From Muricea muricata (lineage: Eukaryota > Cnidaria > Anthozoa > Malacalcyonacea > Plexauridae): DNA of 64,000 nucleotides. Shown in pieces: positions 7,864 to 57,236 of the stretch. Numbering within the stretch: the first letter of the stretch is position 1; the number at the start of each line of letters is the position of its first letter. Where the stretch lies: positions 25,907,418-25,971,417 of the forward strand of contig OY979716.1 in NCBI GenBank assembly GCA_963855995.1, in the 5' to 3' direction. Below the pieces are notes generated by a model, which saw only the letters and a program-made list of their open reading frames with translations, was not told the origin of the DNA and did not search any database. The translations under genes and the position numbers were made by a program.

Positions 7864-7983
7864 TACTTGGAGAATAAATTGGTTGTCAGCATTCACATGT
7901 ATAGAAGTGACAAGATCTACGCAGAAACGATAGGCACTTATAGTACGTATTCCATACAAGGTAAGTGATTGTACAATATGCAA

Positions 7984-8040
7984 GAGCATATACACGACGC
8001 TGAAGAGCATTTACACGACGCTGAAGAGCATATACATAAC
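7984..8040. repeat. 21-bp tandem repeat (GAGCATATACACGACGCTGAA)
   Basis: Just under three units of a 21-bp motif. The same motif occurs in opposite orientation at about 18988-19050, so the pair marks a dispersed repeat family or the two ends of a larger, heavily rearranged structure. Confidence 0.75.
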
Positions 8041-18987: not shown

Positions 18988-19052
18988 TCGTGTATATGCT
19001 CTTCAGCATCGTGTATATGCTCTTCAGCGTCGTGTATATTCTCTTGCATATC
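18988..19052. repeat. 21-bp tandem repeat, inverted copy of the 8.0-kb array
   Basis: Three units of CGTGTATATGCTCTTCAGC-type sequence, the reverse complement of the array at 7984-8040. Confidence 0.75.
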
Positions 19053-33721: not shown

Positions 33722-36339
33722 TTATTTAATCTCTATATAAATGACAATAAAATAGCACACAGTATATAGTTTTTTTGCAAAAGCAAAGTCATAAAGGTTA
33801 AAGAGCAGGTCAGATTCTGGTATAGGAATAAGAGCAGCTGCATGAGGTAATACCAAGGAGCATATGCAAGTGTTTGCAATAGGCATGAACTTGTCATGAG
33901 CCTCCACTTCTGCAAATGTAATTCTTGGTGAAATTGTGAACCCTAGTAATGGTTCTTCATCAGCACATGTAACAAACATGAGAATATGAGCCAAGCTGAC
34001 TACACCCCTTCTTCCACCTAGAAAGAATATGTTAATTGTAGCATTAGCTTAGCTCTATTCTAATTCACTTTTTAGATTTTAATTGTGTTACATTGCAGTA
34101 ATTATTTACTAGCAACGAGTCGTACATACTTCATGAATTGAGCATAGTTTCATTCTCAAATCTTCTACGATTTGAACCCTCTTCACTAAACCTTGGTTTC
34201 AACAAACCAACCAAACTCTTCACTGTCAGTGTGTATGGCGGACGCTTGAAAATATCCAAAAAAGTTGGGAGCAGACAACCAAGCTGTAAGATACATAAAA
34301 AGTCATGAAAGCTAGTATTACATAGCACAACAATGTGCTGAAATAAAATATCAAGTTAATAAATATGAAACATGAATGAAACCAAAATAAAAAAAAACTC
34401 AAAAAATGTTTATTTAGATACAAATTCATAAGTTACAATCACTCACTTGGTAAATTCCAACTTTTTTGAAACCTTCTTGTAGCTCAGCAATGCATGCCTC
34501 AGATGATGTGTCCACACTGAAAACCTTGTTTATTAGTTCCTCATTCAGGAAGAGTGGAATTTTTCCATTTTGATTTATGCTTAATCCTATGAAACGAAAT
34601 GTCAATTGAAAATTTATCTTGCAGTCGTTATGGGCAGAGAATCTGAGATTTCCTGTTCACTTTTATTGGCATAAATTGACTCCATTTTTTCCCTCATTAT
34701 TACTAACAGTGTAAATACATACACTGTAAGTTTTTAAACTTACCTAATATTATGCTAATTGTTACATATTTTTCTCTCAACATTACTCTTAGGCCATTGT
34801 CGAAGTAGATCTCCTTTATTTGTTCTAAGACCAAGCGAAAAAACTCTTTTCGTGGCCCTCCATAGTCTTGGGCAACCTGGTTTGTTAAAATGAATACAAT
34901 ATTAAATAAAGGGCAATTACATGTACATCAGATAAAATTATTGACTGGGCTGAGAACATTTAATTACTCTCATCTGATTTTTTTAAAAACTAACCAAGGT
35001 ATTAACCCATTAAGTTGCAGACCTTATCAGATAATACAAGGCGTTTTACGTACTTCACCATAAAATTGAACCTCAAGCGTCTTCCTGTATTCATTCAAGA
35101 ACTTTACCTCCTCAAAGGCAGTTTCAATAAGGTTATTGCGGTCAACATTAATATAGTTAGTTTCTCCTTCAACTGCTTGAGCCACATTCTCGACTTCCAG
35201 GGATCTTCCAACGATCACTTTTTGCTGAAAGCACCGCAGGATTTCAACCTGACCCAAACCAGAATTTTCATTGCAGTATTTTAACTGTGTCATTCACTGC
35301 TTCATCTAATGTTTGACTCAAGTGATTTTCTTCAGGTTGGGTAAGATCAACTGTTTCTAATACTTCTGAAGATTGCTGTGAGGCAATTGCTGGTAAATCA
35401 GCAGGTGGTGTCGGTAAAGTAATTATTGGATCGGAATTGGGTGTTTGCAAGATAATTTGTGCATTAGGGGATGTTTGTTGTGGTATTTCAGATGTGTCAG
35501 CAACAAATGATGGACTGCCCAAGGTTGCATTTGTTAAAGTTGTGGAAACATTACTTGTCTCTGAGATAACATTAGTAGTTGAGGTGTTTTCATCATCTTC
35601 TGACTGTAATCCTTCTGTGCAAGACCACAAATGGTCTCGAAGTCTACGAACAAGAATTTCCTGGTTGCACATGTGACACTTTTCTTTCACCTCACACTGA
35701 CTTTGTGCCACCAGAGGTTGAGTCGATAATGACTTTTGGATAGGACGCAGGTAAATCTTTCCCTGCCCACCGCCCAAAGCAGATCGTAAATCTTTAGCAT
35801 TCCAGGAACAGCTAATGACGCTCAGATCCCGGCAGTTTGCCGTACATCGCAACAACTCAACCCCCCCCCCGCATTCTTTTAACTGTGGAAATCCCAAAGA
35901 GTTTCCGGTGGCATCTGGCGTTTCGGATGTGATTTTGCCCATCACTGTCTGTTCGTCGTCTTGTAAATCAAGTTTGATTTTTTTTAGCCCCAGGCCAGCT
36001 TTACACAGAATTTGCTTCTCTATCGCCGACGGTGCTTTCGACGCCGTAGAATCAGCTAAACAGAAAAACGTTGGCGTCCATGGATGGCTTTTGGACGCTC
36101 TTCTGTTTGCGCCACTGGTGGTACTCCTCGCAGCAGCACGTGCGTTAGTGCGACTGTTATGCCTTCGAGGATTAAAAATTGACAGTCGCTCTTCTCGTGC
36201 AGCTGACTGTTGATTTGGCAAAGCAGCGTCATCATCAATTTTCTTCTTACACGCGTCTCGTAGACGAATCCGATCGCCAATCGTGGTCACTCGGATGCGG
36301 CCAGGGTGCTCTGCGGCTCCATCCTTTGCGCTCGAAAAC
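33722..36339 (-). pseudogene. HECT-domain E3 ubiquitin ligase-like gene, copy 1 (G2E3-like), near-complete but with frame breaks
   Basis: Predicted minus-strand exons: about 36339-35054 (with one frame slip near 35280), 34876-34744, 34586-34449, 34283 to about 34127 and 34017-33722. All introns are GT-AG and phases agree. Order of parts: VTTIGDRIRLRDACKK (end of a SAM-like domain), a Lys/Arg-rich linker, a Cys/His zinc motif CHMCNQEILVRRLRDHLWSC, an acidic Ser/Thr linker, then the HECT domain (VDRNNLIETAFEEVKF, TLEVQFYGEVAQDYGGPRKE, QLGCLLPTFLDIF, KPRFSEEGSNRRRFE). The C-lobe keeps ANTCICSLVLP with the catalytic-type Cys. A second slip lies near 34134 (NS before MKYVRLVA). It would accept ubiquitin on the Cys and pass it to substrates. 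The first SAM exon was not found. Assembly indels could account for both slips. Confidence 0.75.
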
Positions 36340-36650
36340 GGTTAAAAAGCGTTTCCATTTGTAAAGATCGAAGTATCTCTTCCATCGTAAAACGTAAAAG
36401 GATAAAACAATATAAAACAGTTTGTTAATAGAAAATATCGTGTTAGTACACCACTGAATTTTGTGTTCCTCGCTAAATATTTTAATTGGCATCGAAAGCG
36501 AACCACGCTTCAATACGCACAGAAATGCAAAATTGTAACATGATACAGTTGTTACATGACGCAAACCTACCGCTGTCCTAACACACTGTCTCACCACCAC
36601 CACATAACAACAAAAGCACCGAACGAAATGATTGCACCACCGCGTATAGT

Positions 36651-36845
36651 ATGAAAGTACATCATGCGTTTAAAGCACCACACATAATGTTGAAACCACC
36701 GCATATAATGTTTAAAGCACCGCACATAATGTTCGAACCACCTCGTATAATGTTTAAAACACTGCATAAAATGCTTAAAGCTCCACATGTAATGCAAGAA
36801 ACACCACATATGATGATAAAAGCACCAGATGAAATGACGTTTGAT
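36651..36845. repeat. 24-bp minisatellite (AAAGCACCACACATAATGTT-like), about 8 units
   Basis: Units of 24 bases resembling AAAGCACCGCACATAATGTT plus four bases repeat about eight times with substitutions but without indels. In one plus-strand frame each unit encodes eight residues close to KAPHIMFK, so a continuous frame with MKVHHAFKAPHIML runs to 36896. The repeat lies upstream of the HECT copy (its 5' side). Coding is possible but unproven. Confidence 0.8.
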
Positions 36846-37480: not shown

Positions 37481-37899
37481 AAGCATGATATTATTTTAGT
37501 TAAATAATGCTTAGTTATATATATACAGACATAAGCTATTCTCGAATCCCGAGAAAAAAGCTTTTTCGAACCTATGGCTTTTAGAATCAATATTAAAGTT
37601 TTATGGCTATACGAACATGAAGTTAATAGGCATAAACGAGTACCTTTTAATTAGCAGCAGCATACTGTGTGCAGGCAAGTGAAACTAATTTAAGCTATAA
37701 TATTATAATATTAGAAGTAATGAGAATCATAGAACCTTCAAATTTTAAAGTATACTGCCTGTCGACGCCACGGCTCTCTGATATTCTATCAACAGAGTTA
37801 AACAGTTCTGCATTTCGACTTGCAAGCTGCGGCAAGATCCGATTGTCTTCATAAAAGCACGCTAAATGTGCAAAATTACGGTGGCCATATATGCAATGC

Positions 37900-38340
37900 A
37901 CGACAATATTTGTGAACGCACGTAAATATTTTGCAATGCACAACAATATTTTCTCAGTGCACTACAATATTTTCCCAGTGCACAACAATATTTCTCAGTG
38001 CACGACAATATTTTCTCAGTGCACAACAATACTTTCTCAGTGCAAACAACATTTTCTCCGTGCACAAGAATGTTTTCTTTGCTGTGCACAACAATATTTC
38101 TCAGTGCACGACAATATTTTCTCAGCTTTGCACAACAATATTTTCTCCGTGCACAAGAATGTTTTCTTTGCTGTGCACAACAATATTTCTCAGTGCACGA
38201 CAATATTTTCTCAGCTTTGCACAACAATATTTTCTCAGTGCACAACAATGTTTTCTCAATGCACCGATATATTTTTCGATGCACCGATATATTTTTCGAT
38301 GCACCAATATTTTTTTCGAAGTGCGGATATATTTGTCGAC
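37900..38340. repeat. Tandem array of about 20-21-bp units, left arm
   Basis: About twenty units of the form TCAGTGCACAACAATATTTTC, with variants lacking one base (TTTCTCAGTGCACGAC) or adding GCTTTG. Toward the inside the unit grades into CAATGCACCGATATATTTTT. The right arm at about 39355-39700 carries the complementary array. Confidence 0.9.
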
Positions 38341-38452
38341 ATTTTCCCACATGCTTCCATTTCGAAGTGGTAACACTGTTTCTAAGCATCTAAGTCGCGC
38401 GTAGCTTATGTTTTCATAATTTTCAAGTTTCAACTTTCATTTGTCGGCCATA

Positions 38453-38889
38453 GACGAACTACTGAAAGATTATTTCATCAAAGGCTTTTCGTATCAGAAA
38501 ATACTTCAATTGTTAACAAAAAAAAACACGGCTTTAATATTTCGATGAGAACATTGCAACAACGACTGTACAATTTAGTTTTAAAACGAAGAAACGTCGA
38601 CTATATAAATAGAGAATAAGTCAGTACGGGTATCCGGTCATTTCGCCAACGAGTAGTTTCGCCAACTGTCAGTTCGCCAACGTCGCGTAGTTCATACTTA
38701 AATCACATTTTTAAATAAATAGTATTTGTTACTGATGTCCTTGCATTTTGAAAATTATTCATTGAACACGTGAAAAATCTCGGGCTATACCACTGGACTA
38801 TACACGTTGGCGAACTGGCAATAGACGACCGCAATTCGGACAGATAATGGAACAGAAAACACTGTTATGGCATCTGTTCAAAGCTATCT
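38453..38889 (+). pseudogene. Integrase-family transposase remnants inside the foldback
   Basis: From 38453 the frame reads DELLKDYFIKGFSYQKILQL. After a slip in an A run near 38520 it continues HGFNISMRTLQQRLYNLVLK and RRNVDYINRE, stopping at 38619. This aligns by eye with the N-terminal helix-turn-helix region of the integrase gene at 51.0 kb (ESLIKYYFTRGFQYDAIVYF, then MSERTLRSRLRSYGLKRR). At 38832-38889 the frame AIRTDNGTENTVMASVQSYL matches the second-Asp motif of the same integrase, here with Asp intact. The region between, with the first Asp, is deleted. The right arm repeats the N-terminal part inverted (about 39235-39050 minus, NLGLKRRNIDYNRAEVRE). Confidence 0.75.
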
Positions 38890-39855
38890 TTGATCAGACA
38901 GTCAAGATGAACATGCAAGCATTTTTCAATGCTAATTTCTGATTTGTACATGTGGCTGTTTTTAATTGCCTGTTTTTAAGGAGGTGCTATTGGCACGGGC
39001 TGGCTTGCCATAAGCCACTGCTTCTCACGTTATTGCAATAACTTATTATTCCTTCCCGTACTTCTGCTCTATTATAGTCGATGTTTCTTCGTTTTAAACC
39101 TAAATTGTACAGTCATTGTTGCAATGCTCTCATCGAAATATTAAAGCCGTGTTTTTTTGTTAATTAACAATTGAAGTATTTTCTGATACGAAAAGCCTTT
39201 GATGAAATAATCTTTCAGTAGTTCGTCTATGGCCGACAAATGAAAGTTGAAACTTGAAAATTATGAAAACATAAGCCACGTGCGACTTAGATGCTTAGAA
39301 ACGGTGTTACCACTTCGAAAGGAAATTTCCTTCAAAGTGGAAGCATATGGGAAAATGTCGACAAATATATCCGCACTTCGAAAAAATATTGGTGCATCGA
39401 AAAATATATCGGTGCATCGAAAAAATATATCGGTTCATTGAGAAAATATTGTTGTGCACTGAGAAAATATTGTTGTGCACAGCTGAGAAAATATTCTCGT
39501 GCACTGAGAAATATTGTTGTGCACAGCAGAGAAAATATTCTTGTGCACTGAGAAAATGTTGTTGTGCACTGAGAAAAAATTGTTGTGCACTGAAAAAATA
39601 TTGTCGTGCACTGAGAAATATTGTTGTGCACTGGGAAAATATTGTTGTGCATTGCCATTGGAAAATATTTACGTGCGTTCACAAATATTGTCGTGCATTG
39701 CATATATGGGCCACCGTACAAAATGGCAGTAAATAAATGCAAAATGCTCATTATGGTTGAAGATGTGCGTATTTGTTGTATTAATATAAAAGCCACAATA
39801 TAAGCATAAAATATCGTCGAACGTGATTTTTAAATATATATGACTAGCTTTAGCC

Positions 39856-47612: not shown

Positions 47613-47705
47613 GTCACGACATGATTTTTCTTGATTGAATTAATGAAATCTTTCCTACCCTAACTGCTTGGCCAGTCATATTTCGTGACAGCTTTAAAGT
47701 AACCA

Positions 47706-50310
47706 GTGTTTGTAGAGTGTGCCTGTCATTTGGAAAATAGCTTTAAATTTTGCCCGAAATGTGGATTAAACCTATCCCAGCCTCTGAATAAAGAAATGAG
47801 TGCACGAAGCGTTGAAAATGACCAACGCTCTCTCTTTGCGAAGCCCAGGAAATCAACTCAGCGAGCACGGCTTATGCGATCGAATGCGACAGTTCCCCAG
47901 CGTGTATCTTCTGCTTCATCATCAGGCGCTATTGTTCAGACCAGACTTCACCTCCCTGGTTTTTCAATCTACAATACCGAAAAAGAAAAGGAGCGGCGAG
48001 GATTCAATTTTCGGGGGAAAGAAAAAAAACGACGCGTTGAGCCGCAGCACGTGGTTATTTCAGTGGGAATCATGGTAGAAAACGAGAAACCAAGGCGAAG
48101 CGAGACCCTTCCAGTAAGTGTTGAAACCACTGCTGCTGCTGAATCGATTGTCGAAGCTGCAATTTCCAAGCATGTTGCATTCAACAAGCGTTTTGATAAA
48201 CGACATAGCTATCGTCTTTTGTACAAGGATGGATCCCGTGTATTGTCCATTCCTGGCACTAGTCCCCTGGAACCATTTACTTTATTGGGATATAAAGAAG
48301 CCTCCGGGTTTGGTTGGTCTAAAATAACCTTTTACTTGGGTATCCGAGATCTAGTAAATGATCTACAGCGTGCTATTGAATCTGATTCCGGTTCAGAAAA
48401 TGATGATGACACTGTTGTTGGGAGCTCTTACCTGCCTGCTAGTCAACACCTTGATAAACCAGCTACCTCCAGCTGCACTGAAGTCAGAAATACTAGTGAA
48501 GAGTCTGATGTCTTGTTGATGGTGAACTGCCCCACATGTCATGAGAGGTATCCTGTCACTGAAATAGAAGAGCATGCAGATCTCTGTGCAGATGATGCTT
48601 CAGTGGAATTTCCTAATCCATTTGCACATAACAATTCAAGTAGTAGTGTTGATGCAAAAGGTAATATTGATGGTCCTAATGTAGCTATGCTGTCTATGAA
48701 ACTGATGTTTGAATTTAGAATTAAATATATAATGGAATTTATTTTTTTCATGTTTAGATGAAAGCAAGTCAGTCAAATCTCTTAAAAATGAAATTATGAT
48801 TTTAAAGAACTCAGTAAAAGCAGATGTCATCAGGGTCACTGTCAGACGCAAGCATCTTTAGCAAGACTATACAAAAGCAAGACAAAACAGTTACAATCCA
48901 TCTAACGTTATCAAAATTACTTTTTGTGGGAATCTGCTCTTGACGATGGGGGCCCTAGACGAGAATTTTTTTCTGGTGAGGAAAAGTCAGTTCAGTTAGT
49001 TATGATTGTTTGATTAAAAAGGGTTGCAGTCAAACTAAATATACAGTATTCCGTACAACTATTAAGTGTGATGTAAATTATATCGTTTTTTTGTAGAAAT
49101 GATAAGCTTCTGCAGATCAAGGCTTTTTTCAAATGGGTGCCCTGTTAATTCTGTGTTGGCTTTGGCTAATGAAGATTTCAGAATTGCTGGTGAGTTAATG
49201 GCCATGTCTGTTATTCAAGGAGGGCCAGGTCCATATCTTTTCTCCTCTGTTGTATACAACATTATCAGCAAAAATCTTCATATTGAGGATTGCAAAACAA
49301 GTTTCTTGAAAGAAACCTGTGTTAAGGTATAATATTGAATAATTAATTCATTAATATACTGCTAATTAACATACATAGTGTTTTTCCAGAAAAGAACAAC
49401 CCCCCCCCTCCTATAGATAATATTAGCTGTTAAATGAGTAGTATGATATTGTAAGTTGCTATTTGAAAATTAAATTAATTATGTCTTAAATGCAAATATA
49501 CAATATTATTTAAAATAGTTGCAAGAAGCTGATGATAATGAAATTAAACAATTACTCATGGAAGACAAAGTCCTTGATATTTTGGGTACTGAAGGAAACA
49601 ATGGTGTTCCATCTCGGGAAAACAAGAATTCGATCTGTAAAGAAAATCATTGAGTAATTCTTCAAAGTGATGGTAACACTATTAAAATAGAGAGGTTTTC
49701 AACTGGATTGTTGAAAAATGTTTACTTGGTTGTTTAAGTTTGCTCGTTCGGGATGATTAGTTTATTGAATTTGGTGGTTACCAATAAATGTAAATGTATT
49801 CATTGCGATTTAGTGGTGCATTTTTCTGTAGATAGTGGACTTTTCCAAAAGAGTTAACCCAATGCATAGCAAGTACAAATAAATTAAATTACCACTTTTT
49901 CAATATGATTTATGGTTGTAAATAAACTGTGTAGTTTGTACATGCATTTTTCCTGTTTTATAGATCAATTTGCCTATATGATCAAATACCCGAGGGTACA
50001 ATGCCAATGATCTTGCAGATAATTGAAGGCCTGAAAATTTATGGCCTCCTCTTAGCTATCCAGAATACTCCAGATATCTGGAAACCCCTCTTTGTAAAGG
50101 AAAGTATGCCTGTGATTACACCAACCGCACTCCTTGATGAAGTTGAGGCAATTTACAGTGATTCACAGCTAGTACGAGAAAAAGAAAGTGATGTTTTTTA
50201 TCAATTTTCTTCTGTTGTTGATTCCATGACAAATGAGGAGTTGCAAGTGCTTTTCAACTGGGTGACTGGTTCAACAACAATGCCACCTCTGGGCTTTTGT
50301 TCAAATCTTT
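47706..50310 (+). pseudogene. HECT-domain E3 ligase-like gene, copy 2, truncated before the catalytic Cys
   Basis: Predicted exons: about 47718-48660, 48758-48975, 49097-49326, 49519 to about 49652 and 49964-50310; GT-AG borders and phases fit. Parts: a zinc ribbon (CACHLENSFKFCPKCG), a basic linker, a ubiquitin-like or RA-like stretch (RHSYRLLYKDGSRVLSIPGT), a CPTCHERYPVTEIEEHADLC zinc finger, then the HECT N-lobe (DVIRVTVRRKHL, DDGGPRREFF, ANEDFRIAGELMAM, MILQIIEGLKIYGLL). Damage: TAG where Trp is expected (about 48857), a one-base loss near 48930 and a shift near 49630. The protein stops at GSTTMPPLGF, where it meets the convergent integrase gene. The C-lobe and its catalytic Cys are missing, so it could not act as a ligase. 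Confidence 0.72.
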
Positions 50311-51063
50311 GAAGTAGTTGATCCACCATGTCGATCTACTTCTTCTAAATTGGGAACACCATGACTCTATTCTCTGATTGGCAAAGGACGTTCCAAAAAA
50401 GTGGGAATCAGAAGAGGATCGGAATTCGCACTGAAGTGCCGCAATGACCCCATTCTCCGTGCCACAATTAGTCCTTAATTCTACAGGGCATCCATACTTG
50501 GCCACACTTTCAATATAAAACTGCCCTGGTACCAGCGGATTGTTGTTTGATTGTGCTACACGAAGCCAAATGATTTTCCGGCTCCATCCATCAATACATC
50601 CATGGACCGGAAAACCATATGGCTTTACCTTGTCGTAACCATCGGTGTGCCAGCAATAGTTAGGACCTGGAACACGGTATGTCATTCGCCGCAAACGCCT
50701 GGAACGCCGAATTTCGATTCCTTCTGGGTCCAATTCTCTCATTAGTTGTTCTACAACACGTCGAGGTACTTGATAACCACTTATTCGGAGGGCATGCCAA
50801 ATCGAACGGTACCCTCCCATACACGCAGGACCTCTTAATTTCTCTTGAATGAGTTCACGTATTTCATCGATGTTGTAATCTGGCTGCCTTCTTTTTAAAC
50901 CATAGCTACGTAAACGCGATCGTAGTGTTCGCTCAGACATATGTACCCCATGCCGTTTCGAAAGAAAATAAACGATTGCATCATATTGGAACCCTCTTGT
51001 AAAATAGTATTTGATTAAGCTTTCCTCGTCGTCTTCTGAATCACTTTGATTTCCCTCGTTCAT
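50297..51063 (-). pseudogene. Integrase-type (DDE) transposase, 3' truncated, second Asp replaced by Asn
   Basis: Start at MNEGNQSDSEDDEES (ATG 51063), preferred over an upstream frame start because the acidic N-terminus follows it directly. Helix-turn-helix region: YYFTRGFQYDAIVYFLSKRH, then MSERTLRSRLRSYGLKRR. A linker contains ACMGGYRSIWHALR. The core reads CWHTDGYDKVKPYG (first Asp), GCIDGWSRKIIW, then LRTNCGTENG where relatives have LRTDCGTE, and finally NQRIESW (Glu). The family resembles integrase-core genes widespread in cnidarian, sponge and fish genomes; IS3EU-like is my best label. The frame runs in without a stop but loses homology after WWINYFKDL, at the junction with HECT copy 2. 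Asn for Asp predicts no strand transfer. Confidence 0.75.
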
Positions 51064-51099
51064 TTCACAAAACACTAAAACTATGTGCAAAGGCAGCAA

Positions 51100-51389
51100 A
51101 AGAGCAAAGCACTGCTATACCCGCGAATACTTCATGTATCCGGTGTAATCGGTAAACCCACTGAGTTTATTTTAAATGGTAAACAAACAATTTCGCTAAC
51201 AAAAAATAATATTGTCAAAAAACAAATTTCTCTTAAAGAAAAAAGTTTATTTGGCGAAAAAAAAATTTTGCTCGAAAATAAATTTCGCTGCCCGGGCAAC
51301 TGGTTACGCAGTCATTTGCTCAAGTGGTAACCAGTAGTCTTGCCACATGTTTATATGAAAAAGCACTTAACTGGCTAGGCAGTTCTCTC
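51100..51389. other. Upstream flank of the integrase gene
   Basis: Contains A-rich AACAAA/GAAAAAAA phrases and no gene. The transposon end expected here was not identified. Confidence 0.35.
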
Positions 51390-54064: not shown

Positions 54065-55606
54065 TAACGCATCTCCAAACAGACGTAATTGTGATCTCAT
54101 CCGGCGAAGATGACAACATTACCGTTGTCTCTGTAGCGGCAACAAAACAAAGAACAGAAAAAAGGAGAAGGTAATGTGGCCATTGACAAAAAGCTTACTA
54201 TAACCTTACAGCAGAAACGCAACAAAACGCATGTTCCTGGTAATATGCATAAAATGCATGTTCATAGTTAACGATAGAATACAGTGGTCACATACTGCGT
54301 CAACTATACTGTATTTTCATGTTTTGAATATGTTTCGTCAAAACTTAGGGTTTTAATGATGAGACAGATAAAAGACGTCAGCCTACATATTAATTAAATA
54401 TAAAAATCTTCCAATGAGACATTCATTCACAATTTACTCGTCTTGTAGAGATTATGAACCATCTGCTTATTCCACGGATTCAAGCGACGATGACCTATTT
54501 CCGCGTGTGAAGCAAGTTAGGTTTGGCCCCCTGTTTTGGGATGGCGTAAAGGTGGAAAGAGTTACTATCATACCAAATGATATCAACGGTCGAAAAGTTT
54601 ATGAAGTTGAGAGTTCAAGGTCAAAATTGTCATCAGTTCGTGATGGACGTAATTGGAAAAAGGGCTCGGAAACGCAGTGGTGTGGGTTTTCTAAAGTAAG
54701 ATATTCTGATTGCGCAGGCTCACACGAGTGCATTAACCCCGACTGTGACTTCAAGTGGGAATATGGAGTGGTTAATCGAACTCAGTTTGACAAGACACAT
54801 AAATGCCGGGTATGTCATCAACAAGGAAGGAATGTGCCATGTTCGGCCCGTCGCTATGTCGCCTTTCTAAGAAAATCGATCCGCGTATATCGCTATGGTA
54901 AACACACATGTCCAGCAAAATCAGCTGTACAGAAACCAGAAAGCGAAGTAATACGGCAGTTAACCGAGAACCCAGCACTTACTCCCTCGGCAATACAAAG
55001 CAACTTGATTGTTTCACAAATGAGACAAGGTAATAATAGCTCTTTCTGCATGTCTTTCTGCCCTTTTTAGCACAATGGTGAAGTGCTTTTGGCTAGTTTA
55101 AAATCTTTACAACTTGAACAGGACTTAGCTAATTGCCCAACATGACAATGACTGTGTGTCATTGCTTATAATTTACCTGTTTTGTATAGGGAAAGACTGG
55201 AGCTCCATTGACGATATGTCATGGACAAAAGATGGCTATCAAACGAAAAGCAAAAGATCAAAAATTTTGATGAACAGCACGGTCATAATTATGAAGCCGT
55301 CGCTCATTTTAAACAATATGCTGATCAAAGAGACCCATTCTACATTTACACCATGAATGACCGTCGTGGAAATCCAAACAAGTCTTCTTATGTTTTCAAA
55401 TCAAGTAAATTGAAGGCACAATTCGCTTTAAATATGGACTGCGCTTCGTCCGAAAACAAGCTCAGCAAAGAGTTTTGTTATTTTGACGGAAAGGTGAAAC
55501 GATGTCGTGGATTGGTTTCTTTAACTGCCAGTGTCTACCACCCGATCCTAAAGAAATTGATTCCATTGCACTGGATGAAAAATTGAATTTGCCCCAAATA
55601 TGCCTG

Positions 55607-55765
55607 GTGCAAATATGTTCTAAATATGAAATTTGCAAAGCTTTGCAACCAGTGCAAAGGTGGCAATGGCCGAATTTACCCGTTTTTGTGGCAAATTCGG
55701 CCATTGCCACCTTTGCACTGGTTGCAAAGCTTTGCAAATTTCCTATTTGCAACATATTTTTAAGG
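55607..55765. mobile_element. Foldback with a perfect 50-bp hairpin
   Basis: The arms 55628-55677 and 55693-55742 are exact reverse complements (GAAATTTGCAAAGCTTTGCA ... GGCCGAATTT) with a 15-base loop. Weaker pairing extends to GGTGCAAATATG and CATATTTTTAAGG. GGTGCAAATATG also occurs at the end of the MITE at 58769-59071. It occupies the position where the catalytic core of the SWIM-type transposase should continue. Confidence 0.9.
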
Positions 55766-57236
55766 AAAGTGGTAATCACGATTGTCAATTTAATCCTCGC
55801 GGTTGAATAACAGATATGGCTGGCTGTAACATAGAAACCTTAAAGAGAGTTTTCGGTAATGATACTGTGAAGCGCATTAAGACCTGTGAATTTCATTTCA
55901 AAGAGTGCCGTAATCGTCAGGCACGAAAGCTTGGTGATGATGACCGCAGAAACTTTAAACGTCTATGCAACAGCCTCCTGCAAGCCCCAACTCCAATTAG
56001 CTATGATAAAGCAAAAGAAGATCTAGAATCATTCATTGCCGAAAGTTCTGAACGTCAAAGTCTTTCCACTTGGCTAGATGGTGGCACAAGAGGAGAGCAT
56101 TTGTTTTCCCGGCTTTCCTTGGCGTTTCTGGTGGCTCTAAAATGAACTTAGCTGAAGTCATACTTGCTAGCTGGGTTAAACGAGACAACGGAAACATGTC
56201 ACTATTAGATGCGGCGTACGCTGATGCTCGTGATAACGCCCAACTGGAAGTCGAGTACGAAGCTTTTCGCACCGGCGATTGGCGAAGCGGAACGGGTCCT
56301 TCATTACAAGACAAAGCCATCCAAGGAAGTTCAAACGAGTTACGAAGGGCTCGTGCTCTTGGGCAGGAGCTAATACGTGAAGACATAACAGACATTGAAA
56401 GGACTGTGTCAACAAGTCCCTCTTCCGCAACGTTCAGTTCGCCATCGGACAAGCATAACGCTAGCGTAACAAGCTTGTGTGAAAGAGCAACGAAGAGTAG
56501 ACTGGGCCGTTACAGATCGTCAAGAAGTAAGGCGTTTCTCGATCGCCTTGAAAAAGCAAAAAACGAACGAAATTCAATGAAAGTGAGGTCTATGAATGCT
56601 AATCGAGAAGAGACGGCCGGACTTACATGTGCCTTAGCTACTTCAAGATATACGGATTATCACGTTCATATTGGTAGCCAGCATTCATGTGACTGCCAAG
56701 ATTATGACTTTGTCAAACATCGTGGAAAACAAGCCTGCAAACACATAATTTGGACGTTACTTTTCGTATGTGGTATCCAGGAAGATAGTGACATACTACA
56801 ACAAGTATCTCTGACCGTGGAGGAAATTCGTCAGATTGTAACCAACACCCAAAACGACATTCCTGACCCACTGAAGATTACGAATAATTCTACTCATCAG
56901 AAGCAAGCCAGAAAGGAAGTTACAACGAATCTTTTCGAAAATGATTTTCGGAAGAGTAGACCGTAAATCTGGTATCTTGAACGAAAGGGCGTGAAAAGAG
57001 GGCAAACTCCGAGGTGCAGAGGATGCCGGAAAGAACAGAAAGAGGGGGAGCTTTGTTTATCGGTTACAGGCCTTTATGTATCGTATGGACAAAACTTTGT
57101 TGTGGAGACCAATTTTTATTTTTGTCCAAACGTCTCATGTATACCTCGAACACCTCCATGGACAAATCTGAAACAACCACAAATGGCTCATGCCAATCAT
57201 CAGTGTCAGATGAAGACACTCGCAGGCTTGATTTAG

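Follow-up and report, generated by a model that had tools for sequence, protein, structure and literature searches.

A non-autonomous foldback element probably derived from an IS3EU-type transposon in the genome of Muricea muricata

Most foldbacks appear to be Mutator members, according to the available part of the report on Tetris, a foldback of Drosophila virilis that consists of a repeat-bearing outer domain and an inner domain and whose repeats seed satellite arrays (PMC4079207). In Galileo, as far as the available text goes, the long terminal inverted repeats (TIRs) hold tandem repeats in numbers that are unequal between the arms, and have been extended by recruited internal sequence (PMC3573991). 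These repeats contain additional binding sites for the THAP domain of the transposase, as stated in the accessible part of a further report (PMC3688188). Complete IS3EU families are described in the portion available to us as always carrying TA..TA termini and usually a 6-bp target site duplication (TSD), and IS3EU and GingerRoot as forming one lineage with 99% bootstrap support (PMC10045372).

Here, we analysed a 64,000-nucleotide stretch (the window, C1:25907418-25971417; C-numbers denote contigs), in which a 1,842-bp element occupies positions 37877-39718. Our reading, to which we give a probability of roughly 0.88, is that this is a non-autonomous, IS3EU-derived foldback of the Galileo/FB-like kind, which arose by palindromic duplication of a 5′ end and was presumably mobilised in trans. 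The sequence features behind it are TA..TA termini, 6-bp TSDs, dispersed copies, integrase remnants in two arms, and a centre and deletion junction shared between copies.

Structure and class of the element

The element begins with TACGGTGGCC and ends with GGCCACCGTA, the left terminus being one C shorter than the right. The initial annotation had placed a foldback at 37879..39716; the element is real, but these coordinates omit the terminal TA pairs. The TA that had been described as flanking both ends is therefore the element's own TA..TA terminus, and the actual duplication is the 6-bp CAAAAT, read directly outside both ends (37871-37876 and 39719-39724). The insertion splits a direct-repeat block, as had been noticed: the flanking blocks are 92% identical over 102 bp and 85% over 68 bp. 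A neighbouring, unoccupied copy of the block represents the empty site. Aligned to this copy, the joined flanks show CAAAAT opposite CAAAAG, and the unoccupied block has a 10-base gap a few bases from the insertion site.

The inverted arms measure approximately 650-730 bp (left arm, 37877-38605, plus strand; right arm, 39073-39718, minus strand; inverted-repeat comparison), close to the 650-740 bases of the first estimate. They were paired by blastn over 653 columns at 87.7% identity, unit-level gaps included, with a score of 799 bits, compared to a best inverted match of 37.4 bits after shuffling in 6-base blocks (20 versions). A gapped alignment showed the aligned bases to be 95-97% identical up to position 38608, with 15 transitions and 11 transversions. 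The outer arms are indeed tandem arrays, with units of 20-21 bp such as GTGCACAACAATATTTTCTCA, which extend over 37892-38339 (plus strand) and 39363-39702 (minus strand) when TRF, repeat and unit comparisons are combined. The longest TRF rows lie at 37925-38264 and 39439-39651, with 15.9 and 10.0 copies, respectively, of a 21-bp unit. Given this unequal copy number and an additional 89-bp duplication in the left arm only, the arrays of the two arms have changed independently. Long inverted arms, outer tandem repeats and an inner domain together make this a foldback-type structure.

Owing to a unit length close to 21 bp, several frames stay open through the arrays, with stop-to-stop stretches of 123-175 aa at 37855-38404 and 39299-39829. 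Two database proteins, P0027 and P0033, match the translated arrays of the element's relatives, and some predicted proteins may thus be read-through of such arrays.

In both inner arms, tblastn with 120 listed relatives detected the helix-turn-helix (HTH) start of PF24764 (rva_4) integrases, running from about aa 27 to 100 at 38432-38605 (plus strand) and from about aa 103 to 27 at 39014-39248 (minus strand), with a broken frame on either side. The best match, to P0077 (48% over 50 aa, E 1.2e-12), lies in the right arm; that in the left arm is weaker and split over two frames. Near the centre, an integrase core fragment (about aa 217-245; 38834-38920, plus strand; tblastn) includes RTDNGTEN, the second catalytic-Asp motif, around which the similarity reaches at best 71-75% over 28 aa (38834-38917). 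The translated search therefore bears out the initial annotation, which had recognised an HTH start in both arms and RTDNGTEN between them. With HTH and core fragments only, in broken frames, the element contains no intact transposase.

Between HTH and core, the spacer holds an unrelated, MITE-like repeat some 200 bp long (38625-38831, DNA search, right boundary approximate) and contains TTCGCCAAC motifs. It was found in at least 23 other genomic places at 80-95% identity (DNA search, query 747-905 plus fragments), and its left junction is common to a copy of the element at C1:100.79 Mb. Further inward, blastn and alignment delimited the spacer at the palindrome centre (38937-39015), also present in a copy on C13, and an internal deletion junction (39015-39019), common to the copies on C70 and at C1:100.79 Mb.

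The remnants had been assigned to the family of an integrase at 51.0 kb in the window. This integrase belongs to Pfam PF24764 rva_4 (83.9 bits, cut-off 26), with HTH_21 scoring 26.1 bits, under its cut-off of 28.1. Its relatives P0001-P0003 (93-94% identity; P0001, 94%) reached 37-40 bits against the element, and P0077 reached 50 (tblastn, 120 listed relatives); hence, the listed relatives include one that is closer than the 51-kb family. We accordingly rejected the 51-kb copy as the parent, and it represents another IS3EU family. The named integrase relatives come from Dendronephthya, Oculina and Nematostella. Placement of the element in IS3EU/GingerRoot is probable from both structural hallmarks, TA..TA and a 6-bp TSD, and from the Pfam match of the 51-kb relative.

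Other traces of transposons were observed in the window. The 51-kb integrase (50254-51114, minus strand) and second-gene matches at 47.7-50.1 kb are the remains of a two-gene IS3EU element, around which no TACGGTGGCC was found within one mismatch. Several IS3EU elements have such a second gene, which runs towards the integrase in convergent orientation, in the window at 47703-50312 (plus strand), and it was also located at L067:1827-3053 and L040:3626-4117 (both minus strand). It comprises a zinc-ribbon-like start, a UBZ-like finger and a HECT-like stretch with ..STC..GFHLL at the far end. As all its Pfam scores are under the cut-off (HECT 19.0-19.9 vs. 23.9; Zn_Ribbon_1 23.6 vs. 25; UBZ 12.8-18.2 vs. 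25.6), they give a hint, and not a demonstration, of a transposon-borne HECT-type ubiquitin ligase. One second-gene protein, P0135, had no PDB match, and a literature search, judged by title, returned no relevant report. Another 21-bp array, at 36668-36836, has units like GTTTAAAGCACCACATATAAT and resembles an IS3EU end array; the adjoining ORF (35268-36341) did not match second-gene proteins. A near-identical 21-bp unit occurs in opposite orientations at 7982-8036 and 18988-19045, 11 kb apart, and may mark the two ends of a further long element. The ORFs at 54372-56966 (plus strand), one with a SWIM zinc finger (PF04434, 20.2 bits, cut-off 19.6), are perhaps a degenerate Mutator-like transposon.

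Copies of the foldback elsewhere in the genome

We searched the element's own genome (453 Mb, 74 contigs) for the terminus TACGGTGGCCCATATATGCAATGCA with up to three mismatches. This yielded 36 matches, part of which were followed, against none for the reversed control. Both ends and a matching TSD were found for four foldback copies: that in the window (CAAAAT) and those on C13 (3,543 bp, AATTTT), C70 (1,227 bp, GTATAC) and C3 (1,082 bp, GGTAAC, right terminus diverged). The four TSDs are all different. Three further places (C7:11792928, C1:115886574 and C1:100789900) were partly read, with one end each. The C3 copy gave no HTH match, and only weak matches to P0027 and P0033 inside its arrays, which, with its diverged terminus, counts against the preferred reading. 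The initial annotation had proposed looking for full-length copies with an intact integrase: dispersed foldback copies exist, but no intact autonomous copy of the element's own subfamily was found, a point against the preferred reading.

The probe CGGTGGCCATATATG suggested for that search has just two exact places in the genome, since the left terminus lacks one C of the right terminus. The other exact place (L002, L003) carries the terminus and about four 20-bp units, and its 10 kb contain no second terminus (up to one mismatch), TSD partner or match to seven integrase queries. The pattern TACGGTGGCCATATATG, with up to two mismatches, gave 30 matches compared to 33 in the control; its 28 two-mismatch places look like background, as the window alone among the 30 loci matched integrases or the element. 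In viral contigs, a pattern search gave no stretch, and a protein search indicated one stretch, unconfirmed by tblastn.

In the C13 copy, fragments of HTH and core, reaching to about aa 245, are present on each strand around a 161-bp spacer. Its left arm is broken by an inverted repeat at 417-1227, which is probably a nested insertion. The reverse complement of the window element aligns collinearly with the C13 copy; it retains 79 bp of that copy's spacer, core sequence having been lost on both sides. The less-deleted palindrome retained on C13 agrees with the initial proposal that an integrase transposon underwent palindromic duplication and internal deletion. In the copies on C70 and at C1:100.79 Mb, the sequence continues uninterrupted across the deletion junction of the window element; as this junction is shared and the TSDs of the window and C70 copies differ, the deleted form itself seems to have spread.

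Palindromic chimeras are a recognised class of artefact, and an assembly or cloning error was therefore weighed. The arms differ by about 3-5% and by unit-level indels, several loci have the same centre, and the TSDs are different wherever both ends were read, which leaves this explanation a negligible probability. A second possibility is that the second arm is not a copy of the element's own 5′ end, but a second IS3EU element inserted head to head, followed by deletion. IS3EU copies are numerous (at least 109 protein matches) and nesting is possible. Against this, the two arms belong to the same subfamily as judged by their aligned bases, the inner arms of the C13 copy match at 96.6% around a single short spacer, the TSDs enclose the whole unit, and no inner TACGGTGGCC was found inside the window element with up to one mismatch. 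We consider such an insertion quite improbable, and retain palindromic duplication of the 5′ end as the preferred reading.

End arrays of IS3EU families and a possible route to satellite

The IS3EU matches mentioned above were obtained in a search of the genome with protein P0087 (102 of 1,385 candidates scored), many of the best being in open frames of approximately 385-460 codons. Thirty of the 109 integrase loci were cut out, forming 14 families at 80% DNA identity, and a 5′ terminus was recognised in 13 families (28 loci) of this set. In 11 of the 13 families (26 of 28 loci), TRF detected an array with a period of 17-25 bp in the segment from terminus to ORF, compared to none of 13 for downstream and three of 13 for upstream control segments. 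No array was detected by TRF in L052 and L054 (two of 13 families), which, like the arrays in the three upstream segments, counts against the preferred reading. These counts use the outer 5′ end and periods of 17-25, criteria that were changed after the first result was known. The first count was 20 of 28 loci, with seven of 28 in the upstream control, and was lower because the 5′ end of L059-L063 had been placed at an inner TACGGTGGCC and the period had been capped at 24. Most families are known by the 5′ array only, as the loci ended 1.5 kb past the match.

One complete element, of family A (C1:24653066-24659515, 6,450 bp), has TIRs of 415 and 417 bp at 99% identity, an array inside them at 163-345 from the end, an integrase and a convergent second ORF; its TSD agrees at five of six bases (AGTTTC/CGTTTC), which also counts against the preferred reading. 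Loci L059-L063 belong to one family and are >99% alike (pairwise with L059), with the outer 5′ end at 500, 520, 560, 600 and 620; the differences in length are multiples of 20 bp. The nearest parent-type element read, L076 (C1:86646990-86654758, TSD CTCAAT), has 206-bp TIRs at 90% identity with GTGCAC-type 21-bp units, broken integrase pieces at one end only and a second-ORF remnant at the opposite end. L054 (C8:7348462, 1,975 bp, TSD GATATT) has TIRs of 501 and 513 bp at 95% identity and an open integrase frame of 454 codons, the first 66 of which lie within the TIRs at both ends. As L054 is a family of its own at 80% DNA identity, a 5′ end was probably copied onto the 3′ side more than once, and L054 is probably an independent precedent.

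A 21-bp unit related to that of the element forms an array of 91.9 copies (93% match) at C1:122342561-122344496, with further matches between 122.33 and 122.54 Mb on this 124.18-Mb contig. Satellite-scale growth is seen here, at a locus outside the window, and a satellite expansion peculiar to the element is not supported, given the arrays in 11 of 13 IS3EU families and, in family A, inside the TIRs. A related unit capable of satellite life could mean that the arrays are an unrelated captured satellite with no part in transposition. The arrays of the IS3EU families differ in sequence from one family to another while keeping their place between terminus and ORF, and an IS3EU-like terminus, TACGATGGCCC, is located about 63 bp from the large array, a proximity from which the direction would be from transposon end to satellite; capture is accordingly unlikely. 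The oyster Crassostrea gigas satellites CgiSat35 and CgiSat47 have been annotated as DNA/IS3EU, so that IS3EU-linked satellites are already on record; in the available part of that report, their monomers are 690 and 129 bp, with no stated link to 20-21-bp end repeats (PMC8268682).

Returning to the 5′-end duplication, we envisage that the 5′ end of an IS3EU element, comprising the terminal array and some 245 integrase codons, was copied again in inverted orientation while the element was being repaired or replicated, this second copy replacing the 3′ half together with the second gene located there. The palindrome would then have transposed and lost most of its centre, after which the deleted form would have transposed again. 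An IS3EU integrase produced elsewhere would act in trans; putative binding of its HTH to the 20-bp repeats would offer multiple end-binding sites, and repeat number may be altered by unequal exchange. One genome here contains intermediate stages, namely a parent-type element, a fuller palindrome, a deleted palindrome and a satellite, and makes it testable whether transposases bind the end-repeat arrays and whether satellites originate from them. More speculatively, and in our view less likely than not, IS3EU in this genome may be iteron-type: most families would carry end repeats of their own, of 17-25 bp, that are recognised by the HTH of the family's integrase; foldback parasites with DNA-binding-domain code in both arms would arise repeatedly by 5′-end copying (in the window family and, independently, in L054); and the repeats could escape as satellite towards the chromosome end.

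Comparison with known foldbacks

The element shares TA..TA termini, the usual 6-bp TSD and an integrase-type DDE transposase with IS3EU/GingerRoot (Repbase; PMC10045372); the available portion of that description makes no mention of tandem-repeat arms, foldback derivatives or a second gene for IS3EU. Galileo, of the P superfamily in Drosophila, is alike in its tandem-repeat TIRs, unequal arm counts and recruitment of internal sequence, as far as the accessible text describes them (PMC3573991), but has a THAP-domain P-type transposase, whereas the element has IS3EU-type integrase remnants and 6-bp TSDs. Tetris differs in having 220-bp repeats and, in the part of the report available, no transposase found (PMC4079207), in contrast to the element, whose repeats measure 20-21 bp and whose arms hold transposase remnants. 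Mutator-type foldbacks such as Tm1 (PMC3169594, available in part) are alike in their long inverted repeats and foldback class. Judged by the arm remnants, which match PF24764-type integrases, the element appears to have neither the Mutator-type transposase of this group nor the THAP transposase of the P superfamily.

The initial annotation knew of no described foldback of such composition. Foldbacks with tandem-repeat arms are known (Galileo, Tetris), but a foldback based on IS3EU was not reported among the literature matches listed. The kinds of components are known, and their combination looks new. It would seem that Mutator- and P-type elements, from which the foldback design is known, are not its only source, and that it also arose in another superfamily, with an integrase-type transposase.
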